This document shows, piece by piece, positions 57,810 through 63,800 of a stretch of 64,000 nucleotides of DNA. This DNA comes from Tomocerus qinae (lineage: Eukaryota > Arthropoda > Collembola > Entomobryomorpha > Tomoceridae): assembly GCA_020055645.1 (NCBI GenBank), contig CM034546.1, positions 57,970,001-58,034,000 on the forward strand, in the 5' to 3' direction. The position numbers were made by a program, and so were the translations under genes. Under the pieces are notes generated by a model. That model had not been told where the DNA came from. It worked only from the letters and a program-made list of their open reading frames with translations, and searched no databases. The stretch's first letter is position 1. Every line of letters starts with the position of its first letter.

Positions 57810-60800
57810 TTAATAGTATGTTTCTTTATAAACCCAACCGTTGGGGTACTTTCTCAGTATCCATCTTCGAATTTCGTCATAAATGATAATTAGAACTGCA
57901 AATGGCATTGGTGGAAGCCACCACGTGAACCTATAAAAATAATTATCAATATTATATAATAATATATTTGTATGCAAGTAAATTAGTAATTTTATCCTGC
58001 AAAAATGTTTGACTGTAAAAATCCCTCTAATAGACACAAAGGTATTTTCACATTTTGAGATTATGTTGAAAATAAGTAGGTTGGTACTAAATTTGTAGCT
58101 TGAACATTTTATAAAGGATAGGATTTGGAGTCAGAAGCATGTGTTTAGTGATATGTAAGCAATTCAATTCATAACTTAAAAAATGTCTATTTACTTCAAA
58201 GGTTGCATTCGAAGAGCTATGTCCATCCCTGGAGTATAAGATAGGAATGCTGCCACGGCCGTCTCAAACACAAGACCAAAGTTCAACACCCAATTGCTAT
58301 TCATAAACATACATACATATAAGTACAAAAGTAATATTATACAAAAATGTTTTATTTCTTATAAATTGGAGGATTACGTCATTCCTTGATGATACAAAGA
58401 GTTAGTTCTCGTTTTGCAGATAATGACGTCAGCCCACTGCACGATGACAATGGCGACAAAGAAAGCTGTATGACAACTGTACTCTAACTTTTTCCTAGCC
58501 GAGTATGTCCATTCTTGTCCATAAGAATCTTCTAGATCGTTGACAGCCTTCGACTCCCATCTTTTCCTAATGCCGAATAAGTCGTGAGGGAGAAAGCCAT
58601 TCTCTGCTAAAATGACGAGATACACAAAAAATCCAGCCGCAGCTTGAATCATCCCGACTTGGCCATAGGCTACAGAAATTAATCGTTCATTCACTAATTT
58701 ATCTCTTTTGGCATCTCGAGGGTGTCTCTTCATGATGTCCGACTCTGCCTTCTCATAAGCTAAGGAAATAGCTGGCACCTGTCAGTTTTAGAAATATTTG
58801 ACATATTTATTGCAATAATAGTAATTCAACCATTTTAAACATTTTTATACTCTGATTATATGTATATAAATAAATATTACCATATCTGTGCCTAAATCAA
58901 TGCATAAAATGGTGACAGTTCCCAGAGCAAGTGGAATATCAAAAATGATAAAAAACAAAAACGGTGAAACTTCTGGGATTTTTGATGTCAATGTGTATGC
59001 GATTGACTTTTTGAGATTGTCAAAGATTAAACGTCCTTCCTCCACTCCAGTCACAATAGTAGCGAAATTGTCATCAAGCAAAATCATGTCAGCGGCTTGT
59101 TTAGACACATCTGAACCGGAAATGCCCATTGCAACACCTGTCGCCAATTAAAATAGGATTTACAAGTCAATCTCATGTTACCCCCGATTATGCGATTTAT
59201 ACCACAAGTTGAGACTTGAGACGATGATTATGTTATAATATTATGCTTCGCAAGATCGAAGCACATATCTATTTAAAATCATTACTAATTAGTGAAATAG
59301 GTACCAATGTCAGCCTTTTTCAGTGCAGGGGGAATCATTAACTCCGTCTCCAGTGACGGCAACAATAGCTCCTTGTTTCTGTAAGGCCTCAACAATAATT
59401 AACTTTTGCTGCGGTGATGTTCTGGCAAAAACAATTTCTGGATAGTTGCGTAACAAGTTGTCTAATTCGTCTTCTGTGAGATCCTTTAACTCTGCTCCAT
59501 GAACTACTGCAGCTTTTGCCAGTTCAGGTTCAACATCTGCTACTGATACATTTAGTCTTGCTGCTATGTCCTCAATGGTTTCATTATCTGTAAAAACAAT
59601 ATAATATAATAATATTATAGTTTTAAGTATATAGAATGAAATTTAAACATATTGGAGTCAGTATTAATTTATTTTATCAAAGAAAATGACAATCTATACC
59701 TTCTGAGATAATCCCAACGGATTTTGCAATAGCTTTGGCAGTGATTGGATGATCGCCTGTGACCATTATGACTCGGATTCCTGCTGTCCTACATTTGGCG
59801 ACTGCGTCTGGGACAGCGGCTCTCGGTGGATCAACTCATTGAGATTAGACCAACAAAACGAAAGCCCTTCAATGGGAAATTGACATTTTCAGAGTCAAAG
59901 TTAAAACCCCGAGGATAATCTTCAAGCGGTAGAAGAAAATCGCAAAATCCTTTAAAAATTAAAAGAGTTCAAACATTTCTGTCTGTAAATTGATTTTAGT
60001 ATAATGAAGAGACTTTTTTATTTTACTTTGCACCTAAAACTCGTTCTCCTAAAGATCCCAATTCTAGATAAGCTTCGTTAAAATCATTTTTCATATCAGC
60101 ATCTAGCTCTTTGTCTTCCCCATTGATCAATATTGAATTACACAACTCGTAAATCTTCTCAGGAGCTCCCTTTTTGTATATTGATAAAAATGAATGAATA
60201 TTTTAATCTTTTAATTCTGCATTTTTGTAGATTATTCTTACTTTCATGACCAAAATGTATCTACTGTCATTCGGGTCGTCATTTTCGTGAATTGATACTT
60301 GGTATTTGTCCGTTGAATTAAAAGGAATCTCGCAAATTTTCTTGTAGCGGTTTCGATACTTCATGACATCACCGTGAACTAATTCCATACATTTCAGTAG
60401 TGCGGCCTCTGAAGCATCGCCGTTGACTTCACGCTTCATGACAGGTATTGTTCCCTGATTTACCTTGAATTCGGCACGACTACAGAGCGTGGCCACTCTT
60501 GCTAAAATCTAAACCGCGTTTGCATTAGAATCACAAAAGAAATGACATAATAGAGAATATTTAAATTAAAGCAATTGTCGGGTTATTGCATTAATCCTTT
60601 GGTGTTGGAGAAAAATTCAATTCGGTATGAACTGGAAATGTAATTTATTCTTTTTGTAAGTATTACTTAGGAAAATTAGCCGTGATTGTGCCTTATTTAT
60701 TTATATTTCGTTTCAGACTTCAGATAAGTTTTCGTGAAGAAACTAAATGAGTCAGTGAATTTAAATGTACATAGAGGAAAATAATTAAATCATAATAAAA

Positions 60801-63800
60801 AATATATTTCTCAACACTCAAGGCTATATTACTAATAGCCTAATACTGTGCTGATATTATGGGGTCCATTAAAATACTAAATGTGGAATTGTACATGTGA
60901 AATCCTAACCTTAAATTCGTTACTTGATTGGTCAAATTGAACTCCAGATTGATCTTCTGTTGTATCTGCTTCAACAGTATGATTATTAAACCATAAATGC
61001 GATACTGTCATTCGATTTTGTGTCAAGGTCCCCGTTTTGTCCGAACAAATTGCTGAAGTTGATCCCAGCGTTTCAACTGCCTCCAAATTTTTTACTAGAC
61101 AATTTTTCAATGCCATTCTCTTAGCTGTCAGCGTCAGGCAAACCTATTCCAACAATTAAGTAAATAATTGGTAATAATTTTTATATTTTCTTTTACAAAT
61201 TAGTTCAGCTTAGAGAGACGACTTGGGATTAATGTTTATTTATTAGGATCGAAGCTTTGCTTAGTATCCTTATGAATTTGTCGCTGTCACTCTGGCGATC
61301 GTCTGGTCGTCTGGTCGTCTGGTCGTCCACTAATTTTATGGGTGTTTTATTGGCACGTATATCTTTGCAACGACATAACTTATTCCAAATCTGTTTTTTG
61401 CATATGGTAGCATATATATTCAGGATCAACCAGTTATCATTAAAATTCAAATTCGATGCATCCCCTGGTTTGTGGAAATTAAAACATGCAGCAAGTGAGG
61501 CAGACAGTAATAGTACGGCAGGTGAGACAGACAGCGTAGTAGCATAGAGGACTGTAGATGAGCTGAGCTATCTAAGAGACTACACACCGCGCTGGTATTA
61601 ACATGCTCTGAAACTGCGGGAGACAAATGCAATATAAAATAGCTTCTCTTTAGTGCAAGGATTAGTTGAATACAATTTTCGTTTCATTGCAACAATATTG
61701 TCACTGCATTGTAACCCAAAAGTGAAAATTGGCTAAAGAAGAGGATTTTTGTCCATTGTGATTAGTTAAATACAGTTTGAAACATTTTAACGTGAAAATT
61801 GTCAAAATATAATGGAAATGGTTGTCCAAGTGAAATCTTCACTTCATTATGAATACATGTGTGGGATTCATCAGTGGTGAGGTGCAGTTAACTACAATTA
61901 TCTCAAATCACTATTTAGGTATTGTTTAAATCACAATACTACATTCAATTTGTATTGCAATCCAAAAAATTATTAATCGGGTATAATCCTAATCGTGACA
62001 CTCGATTCTTTCTAGCTTTACAGTCACCTGGTGCGGAATTGATTGGGTTGTGATTAGTTTTGAAACATTTTATAGTAAAAATTGTCAAAAATATAATGGA
62101 AATGGTCGTCCATCGTCACTTCATTATAAATACTCGTGTGGGATTCATCAGTGCTGAGTGCAGTTAACTACAGTTGTCACAAATCATTATTTAGGTATTG
62201 TTTAAATCACAATACTATATTCAATTTGCATTGAAATCCAAAAAATATTAATCTGGTATAATCCTAATCGTGATACTCGATTCTTTCCAACTTTACAGTC
62301 ACTTGGTGCGGATAATTGAGTTCTGCATGTTGACTCATATGAACTTATATGAATACTCTAATACCAATACCATTAACTCCCGCCCAGACTGTTGGACCAA
62401 AGACTCTCCTACTATAACCCTAGATTTTAGATGGCGTAGTAAGTGAAATCTACAAAATCAACAAGATATTACTATTTAGGTATTGTTTAAGTCACGTTAC
62501 TATATTGAATTTGTATTTCCAGCTGACTTGCCGAATGCATCCCTACTCATTATTAAATGACATATTCCATTCTTTCCAGCTTTACAGTCTACTAGGAATT
62601 GAGTTCTGCATGTTGACACATGGTGAAGAATTGAAGTTCACTATTTGGAATAAACATTTTATCGTGGAATCTACAAAATCGACAAGATATCACTATTTAG
62701 CTTGGTGTTAATTGACTCCTGGAGGGTGGATATTCATGACTACCAGCAGTTTGATCTGGAACAGGAATGGGATTCCGGAATGGGACTAATTCAAAAGAAA
62801 GTCCCATATAAAATTTCAAACTATTTTATAGGACTTTCTCTACAGAACCCAGCTGATACGGGCAGGGGAAGGAGGGAGGAAGAGGCGGGAATCTGTCTAT
62901 TTGCCTTGATTCTAATGATAACTGATTGTGGCTGAATACATGTGCTACCATATGCAAAAGCAGATTTTAAACAAGTTATGTCGTTCCAAAATATGCGTGC
63001 ATTTTATTATCGAAGGACAACCAGACAACCCACTGGGAAACCATGCTAAGAGCAATAGACTTACTGATAAACAATTGTTGGTTGGGCATAAGCTGCGAAG
63101 CAGGCAAATGGTCGTGGCGCGATCTCAAACTTGCAAACGTGAAATTTCATGTGAATGCAATGCAAGCAGGATATAGTTTATTATTGTTATTGTTGTGCAC
63201 TGCGCCGTGCACCATCTACCATTTCAACCTAGTCTACAAGCTTTAGCAAGTAATTGGTTTCCCTTAGGTGTAGTTTCGCTACTGCCGTTTCAGAGCTACA
63301 CGCTGTCACTTTTTGCCCTATAGCATTATCCTTCCAGATTAACCTATTAGTAGTAGTCTAATTCCGTGCAACCAGACCATCAGAATTTTTTTTTAAATCT
63401 CCCGCTTCGATCCTGCGTATACGCCTGTTGCCAACAGTTTATTTTTCCCCTTACCGTCACAGTTGCCAACAGTCCTGAAAAAAATAAAATATTTATTAAT
63501 TATATGTTTATTATGTTTTGTATCCACTAATGAATGATTTGTCAGGAGGGTTGCCGTAGTCATGGGCATTGTGAGATAACTCAAATCATGAGATAGTGAG
63601 AATTTTGGCAATAAGATCCTATATTGTTATGGCAATATAGGATTTTGATAGTTCATTGATTCGAGTTTTTCCACGACACTTATTAAGCCAACTTTTATAA
63701 ACATAATTCAATGTATGGTACCTTGGTACCTAATTATGATGGAATTGACGTAGCGAAATTGTTCTAACCTTCTGGAACCCAAGCAACGATAATTCCAATA

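Follow-up and report, generated by a model that had tools for sequence, protein, structure and literature searches.

The 64,000-nucleotide stretch of the springtail Tomocerus qinae analysed here (assembly GCA_020055645.1, contig CM034546.1, positions 57,970,001 to 58,034,000; hereafter the window) carries on its minus strand, at 57810-64000, 11 exons of a gene for a Na,K-ATPase alpha subunit in which, in pig alpha1 numbering, Asn324 of membrane segment M4 is replaced by Trp, Asn776 of M5 by Lys and Pro794 by Ala. The combination is the mark of a paralog group shared by several springtails, its genes forming one clade, in which the ATPase motifs are retained and Na+ site III has its usual residues. 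Altered stoichiometry appears to us the best mechanistic reading of the Trp/Lys pair: judging from the pocket residues and by analogy with known pumps, we put at roughly 60% the probability that this collembolan group pumps with a reduced stoichiometry, in the manner of the brine shrimp (Artemia) alpha2KK pump, Trp324 taking the part that Tyr340 plays in the gastric H,K-ATPase. Below, W/K, N/N and so on denote the residues at positions 324 and 776, a third letter that at 794.

Both replacements were read directly from the minus strand, as TGG at 63781-63779 in the frame VAWVPEG and as AAA at 58982-58980 in the frame LTSKIPE. The original prediction had named these two sites, and alignment bears out its pig numbering; its further statement that the remaining cation-coordinating residues are kept holds as well, since E327, S775, E779, D804, D808, Q923, D926 and E954 are those of the pig pump. 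D369, Y771, T772, P778, T807 and Y847 are likewise identical to pig, and I850 of the pig pump is Val. Two features had gone unremarked, namely the Pro794Ala change and two +1 frame breaks, one in exon 6 and the other in exon 7. The description of the Asn pair as family-invariant stands for 144 of the 145 Na,K-ATPases listed in our first protein searches; it does not extend to the wider group, where the ATP4A protein P0148 has Tyr324. At near-invariant sites, defined by at least 98% agreement among the N/N proteins (144, a set with many isoforms of one species), the window protein differs at 45 of 523, compared with 51 for the pump of the springtail Orchesella cincta and 49 for that of Artemia, and the window and O. 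cincta proteins have the same residue at 20 of these departures.

The assembly (334 Mb, 115 contigs) was searched with the O. cincta protein, P0003, giving at least 100 exon-sized matches, from which 16 stretches were typed. Three loci carry W/K/A: the window gene itself (L009), a copy some 40 kb away on the same strand (L010) and another on contig C4 (L011). A single locus, present twice in the assembly, may account for two of these three. The check for Asn codons suggested with the original prediction, run on the same-genome copies, again gave Trp and Lys in L010 and L011. Since P0003 is W/K too, as are L010 and L011, chance or base-calling error is very unlikely to lie behind the pair. RNA editing back to Asn was discarded by reasoning, because A-to-I change cannot turn TGG into an Asn codon. 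All three loci contain the Na,K-ATPase alpha motifs ([17 protein letters not shown]), and the full L009 gene has Gln111 and Asn122, residues considered with regard to ouabain block of Na+/K+ transport, a putative property of its product.

Canonical N/N/P genes, which the original prediction had proposed to look for, exist in the same genome as L012 and L013. L012, recovered over 763 of 1001 columns, groups with springtails in the tree and is nearly identical to a metagenome protein, P0013 (branches 0.012 and 0.0019); an apparent Gln122 in L012 was judged to be read-through at an intron end and set aside. Beside it, L029 (C2:60985000-60994499) holds three versions of the exon following M6 (VPAISLAYE...), at 8630-8535, about 7370 and 5896-5786, which look mutually exclusive; the window W/K gene shows one. 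At a greater distance stand seven loci resembling Na,K-ATPase (L014, L015-17 and L018-L022), all with Asn776, with Asn at 324 in six and Gln in L021; they look like an expansion of pump-like genes. Asp804 of M6 is replaced by Cys, Val or Met in six of the seven (L014, L018, L019, L020, L021 and L022), that is, in every one with M6 covered, with DKTGT and Asp808 kept. L024 is a P-type ATPase more distant still, and L023 is fragmentary.

Among other species, the top identity in the first protein search was to P0003 (81%), which two longer proteins, from a sea slug (73%) and a beetle (78%), outrank by bit score. The 145 Na,K-ATPases listed comprise 144 N/N proteins and a single W/K one, P0003. 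A further search, with P0003 residues 752-811, listed the best 120 of 5629 proteins, of which 105 were typed (P0003 plus 104 unseen before); the shares of Lys776 and Ala794 among them are inflated, as the query itself carried both. Trp324 and Lys776 occur together in three of the 105, from O. cincta, the springtail Folsomia candida (P0150) and the land snail Candidula unifasciata (P0221); a fragment, P0149, has Lys776 and Ala794 with 324 outside its coverage. These three proteins and the three T. qinae loci all carry W/K/A. Asn324 is combined with Lys776 in 26 proteins (23 teleost, two from the hairworm Gordionus and one from the crayfish Procambarus), and Asn776 is found in 74, with Asn324 in 62 and with 324 unmatched in 12. 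The remaining protein is ATP4A P0148, in which the M5 pattern was unmatched. Ala794 accompanies Lys776 in 26 of 30 proteins as against two of the 74 with Asn776, both from tardigrades (P0179 and P0207), so that Ala794 does not depend on the presence of Lys776. Counted over independent pairs the association has a median p of 0.25, the six pairs being too few.

Trees were built from rows hand-picked from 249 proteins together with the window, Artemia, pig and genome loci, leaving out L010 and L014-L024. The mixture-model trees, with the three trait columns omitted, contained Na,K-ATPases only, and a quick tree under LG+G4, a model that joins long branches more often, had one ATP4A row as outgroup. 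The window gene falls among animal Na,K-ATPases, and the springtail W/K genes make one clade in all three mixture analyses (100/100 in each). The partners of Candidula P0221 in the mixture trees are a ribbon worm and a bryozoan. Forcing the snail W/K protein to join those of springtails was rejected under the mixture model with p values of 0.00133 (29 rows), 0.00015 (31 rows) and 0.00326 (27 rows); under quick LG+G4 with 63 rows the same constraint was not rejected (p 0.558), the likelihood being slightly better when they were joined. W/K/A thus probably arose twice, given rejection in the three mixture tests, though not in the one with the simple model.

How the pair might work is suggested by other pumps. 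In the text available from PMC8481561 and PMC6706254, the side chain of Asn776 in the sodium pump makes contact with K+ at each of the two sites, and Tyr847 holds it in place. In the gastric H,K-ATPase, according to the same text, Tyr340 stands at the place of Asn331 of shark Na,K-ATPase and displaces Tyr863, the lysine at the position preceding 776 obstructs site I, and a single K+ is bound (numbering there: shark 331, 783 and 854; H,K-ATPase 340, 791, 792 and 863). For the brine shrimp pump, the available part of PMC10812997, citing Artigas et al. 2023, has the M4 and M5 lysines permitting 2 Na+ per 1 K+, and for salmonids that of PMC6987325, citing Jorgensen 2008, has Lys at the place of 776 argued to lower the Na+:ATP ratio for fresh water. 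In its residues the W/K pump combines both designs, with a lysine at 776 in the pocket and, at 324, an aromatic side chain. The amino group of Lys776 would sit in the pocket as a tethered cation replacing one transported ion, as in alpha2KK; the bulky Trp324 of M4 would, like Tyr340 of the gastric enzyme, push Tyr847 of M7 clear of residue 776 and make space for the lysine; and Ala794 may, as a guess, ease the fit. Such a pump would export about 2 Na+ per 1 K+ per ATP, with Na+ site III presumably intact, and could hold steeper gradients than a 3:2 pump. Its likely use, though again a guess, would be in a transporting epithelium, for instance that of the ventral tube, where it would take up or retain salt in the face of dilute water films. 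That springtails hold their water balance by the ventral tube is described in PMC4468109, where the part available does not discuss this gene.

The frame breaks raise the prospect of a pseudogene in the window, with W/K a product of decay or error, which we consider highly improbable. Breaks are indeed present in both neighbouring copies: the window gene has its two, and L010, free of these, has one +1 break of its own in another exon. In L011, where the micro-exon is unmatched and splice sites were taken as found, matches to P0003 are broken only at exon borders, and the aligned exons are therefore without a frame break; W/K/A moreover recurs at full length (1005 amino acids) in P0003. Over the exons within the window, L009 and L010 show 13 differences in 2303 coding sites, every one of them synonymous, where 23-29% would be expected under neutrality (odds of 13/13 from 4e-9 to 8e-8): purifying selection has acted between the two copies. 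All ten introns fit GT-AG, although their borders were picked by us from homology and signal. The remainder of the repeated block containing both genes, which may be a segmental duplication or an unpurged second haplotype, speaks on both sides. One receptor-like open reading frame in it shows 3 mismatches and as many as 11 small indels, a pattern that looks like residual assembly indels; the other two duplicated genes do not look so, one having 6 indels against 62 mismatches, the other, four exons that by eye resemble a MutL-type repair gene, having 1 mismatch and no indel. With the coding substitutions exclusively synonymous and the aligned L011 exons unbroken, the frame breaks are most likely assembly errors rather than signs of gene death, a very recent loss in one copy being the less likely alternative.

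If the gene is alive, its pocket might still have changed in selectivity rather than in stoichiometry, the aromatic residue at 324 and the M5 lysine giving an H,K-ATPase-like mode. The literature cited above on an aromatic residue at this place in a pump binding a single K+, and the combination of Tyr324 with Lys775 in ATP4A P0148, lend this some colour. It is nonetheless quite unlikely, since Ser775, Asp804, Asp808, Gln923, Asp926 and Glu954 are as in the pig Na,K-ATPase and the C-terminus is KETYY. As regards ancestry, the springtail W/K genes and Artemia KK might descend from a single lysine-bearing duplicate in early pancrustaceans, a history compatible with reduced stoichiometry. The quick LG+G4 tree joins them (96, starred) and a mixture tree does so weakly (72/46); the corresponding constraint is not rejected (p 0.291), and the departures I391V, H678Y, N776K, P794A and L957V are shared. 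Both branches, however, are long, and joining the W/K with the N/N springtail genes is likewise not rejected (p 0.225, or 0.148 with L013 among the N/N rows). Once four long or divergent rows (Artemia, the Folsomia W/K protein, L013 and a tardigrade) are removed, the W/K genes stand beside the springtail N/N genes (88/84, unstarred). We regard the common duplicate as unlikely. Of the convergent or ancient origin envisaged in the original prediction, convergence is thus likely, and the trees neither establish nor reject one ancient origin in common with Artemia. Several observations, besides the breaks in both neighbouring copies, tell against a reduced stoichiometry of the alpha2KK kind. Residue 324 is Lys in alpha2KK, so that the analogy for this position rests on the H,K-ATPase, whose lysine is at 775 and whose pumped ion is H+. 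Trp324 is not required for Lys776, as the 26 N/K proteins show. P0150 has Arg at the place of Tyr847, in a disordered stretch, which is probably a fault of the gene model. Finally, with the full-length O. cincta pump as query the alpha2KK structure comes only fifth in the PDB (1526.4 bits; best 1530.5), and P0003 is 67.9% identical to alpha2KK as against 73.8% to the Folsomia N/N protein.

Animal sodium pumps, so far as is known, almost all work at a stoichiometry of 3:2. With slightly less than even confidence we suggest that Trp324, Lys776 and Ala794 together are a second solution to a Na+ pump of reduced stoichiometry, to which springtails and a land snail came separately, making at least two origins; by displacing Tyr847 the aromatic residue would do the work of the Artemia M4 lysine, and pumps of this kind would be a recurrent tool of animals in very dilute or very salty surroundings. 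The W/K/A pump may then be a repeatedly invented device for harsh salt gradients. A conserved springtail paralog, and a snail protein with the same three residues, open to experiment the questions of what sets the stoichiometry and how many times it has changed, natural Trp/Lys, Asn/Lys, Lys/Lys and Asn/Asn pumps providing a ready comparison series. No report of Trp324 in a sodium pump, or of the springtail or snail gene, was found among the matches listed from an open-licence library, from which most subscription papers are absent, and a literature search on Artemia with N776 or N324 gave nothing on point among the matches listed. A 2025 Nature paper on terrestrialization uses neither 'ATPase' nor 'sodium' in its main text.

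The layout of the gene is given in the table. Its 5' exons lie outside the window in the same assembly, with the most upstream match at about C1:58035008.

Table. Exons of the Na,K-ATPase alpha gene and the repeated block, in window coordinates
Feature	Position	Strand	Remarks
Exon, M3-M4	63769..64000	-	Trp codon TGG 63779-63781 (pig Asn324)
Micro-exon of 20 bases, LLATVT	63455..63474	-	GT-AG borders
Exon, DKTGT phosphorylation motif	60910..61143	-	
Exon, cytoplasmic part	60242..60508	-	
Exon, cytoplasmic part	60034..60169	-	
Exon 6	59700..59949	-	+1 frame break near 59836, none in L010 or matching L011 exon
Exon 7, GDGVNDSP	59305..59587	-	+1 frame break near 59332 (C run), none in L010 or matching L011 exon
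Exon, M5-M6	58881..59137	-	Lys codon AAA 58980-58982 (pig Asn776); Ala at pig Pro794
Exon after M6 through M8	58378..58778	-	L010 has its own +1 frame break in the counterpart
Exon, M9 stretch	58195..58296	-	Glu954
Last exon	57810..57930	-	KETYY, then stop
Repeated block	42521..64000	.	Repeated at C1:58052320-58073808, 98.5% identical; the copy there carries sister W/K gene L010

Elsewhere in the window, receptor-like open reading frames lie at 50110-52539, 45339-47780 and 37791-40036, two of them of about 810 amino acids in one frame and that at 37791-40036 split over two overlapping frames; none has a Pfam match at E 0.001. Open reading frames resembling multi-pass membrane proteins occupy a duplicated stretch (6625-15511 and 20437-26149), the pieces of which are 84.7-94.8% identical with many indels of one or two bases, and retrotransposon-like reading frames were recognised by eye at 28416-31655 and 1-2649. 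The Pfam scan of nine window open reading frames, including a 100-amino-acid Na,K-ATPase exon, returned no family at E 0.001. Scanned with Rfam at its gathering thresholds, the window gave 0 matches, and megablast of the M5-M6 exon against phage records gave no match. The idea of a second, canonical exon hidden in the window was dropped, only matches with E of at least 1 being seen beyond the gene's own exons.

Among known pumps, Artemia alpha2KK (Artigas et al. 2023 PNAS, as cited in the available parts of PMC10812997 and PMC11172918) shares with the window pump Lys776, Ala794, an altered residue 324 and an otherwise conserved pocket. Its lysine pair, named in the original prediction, is confirmed by PDB entry 8k1l, which reads AKVPEG and LTSKIPE. 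For the M5-M6 exon this entry is the best PDB match (159.3 compared with 153.9 bits), with K776 and A794 in common. The proteins are 71.4% identical (524/734), but position 324 is Lys there and Trp in the window, and for this reason we do not file the window gene as an alpha2KK member. Teleost alpha1 subunits with the M5 Asn-to-Lys change resemble it in Lys776 and, in 21 of the 23 listed N/K rows, in Ala794, but differ in keeping Asn324 in all 23. The gastric H,K-ATPase (ATP4A) has an aromatic residue at 324, an M5 lysine and one bound K+; it differs in placing the lysine at 775 instead of 776, in pumping H+ and in retaining Pro794. Its markers are absent from the window pump, which has Ser775 rather than Lys (H,K-ATPase Lys791) and Asp804 rather than Glu (Glu820). 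Both markers are taken from the available text of PMC6706254, and the projected P0148 row shows Asp at 804 and so does not support the second. Outside springtails, Candidula P0221, 71.9% identical to the window protein, has the same W324, K776 and A794, but is placed with ribbon worm and bryozoan in the mixture trees.

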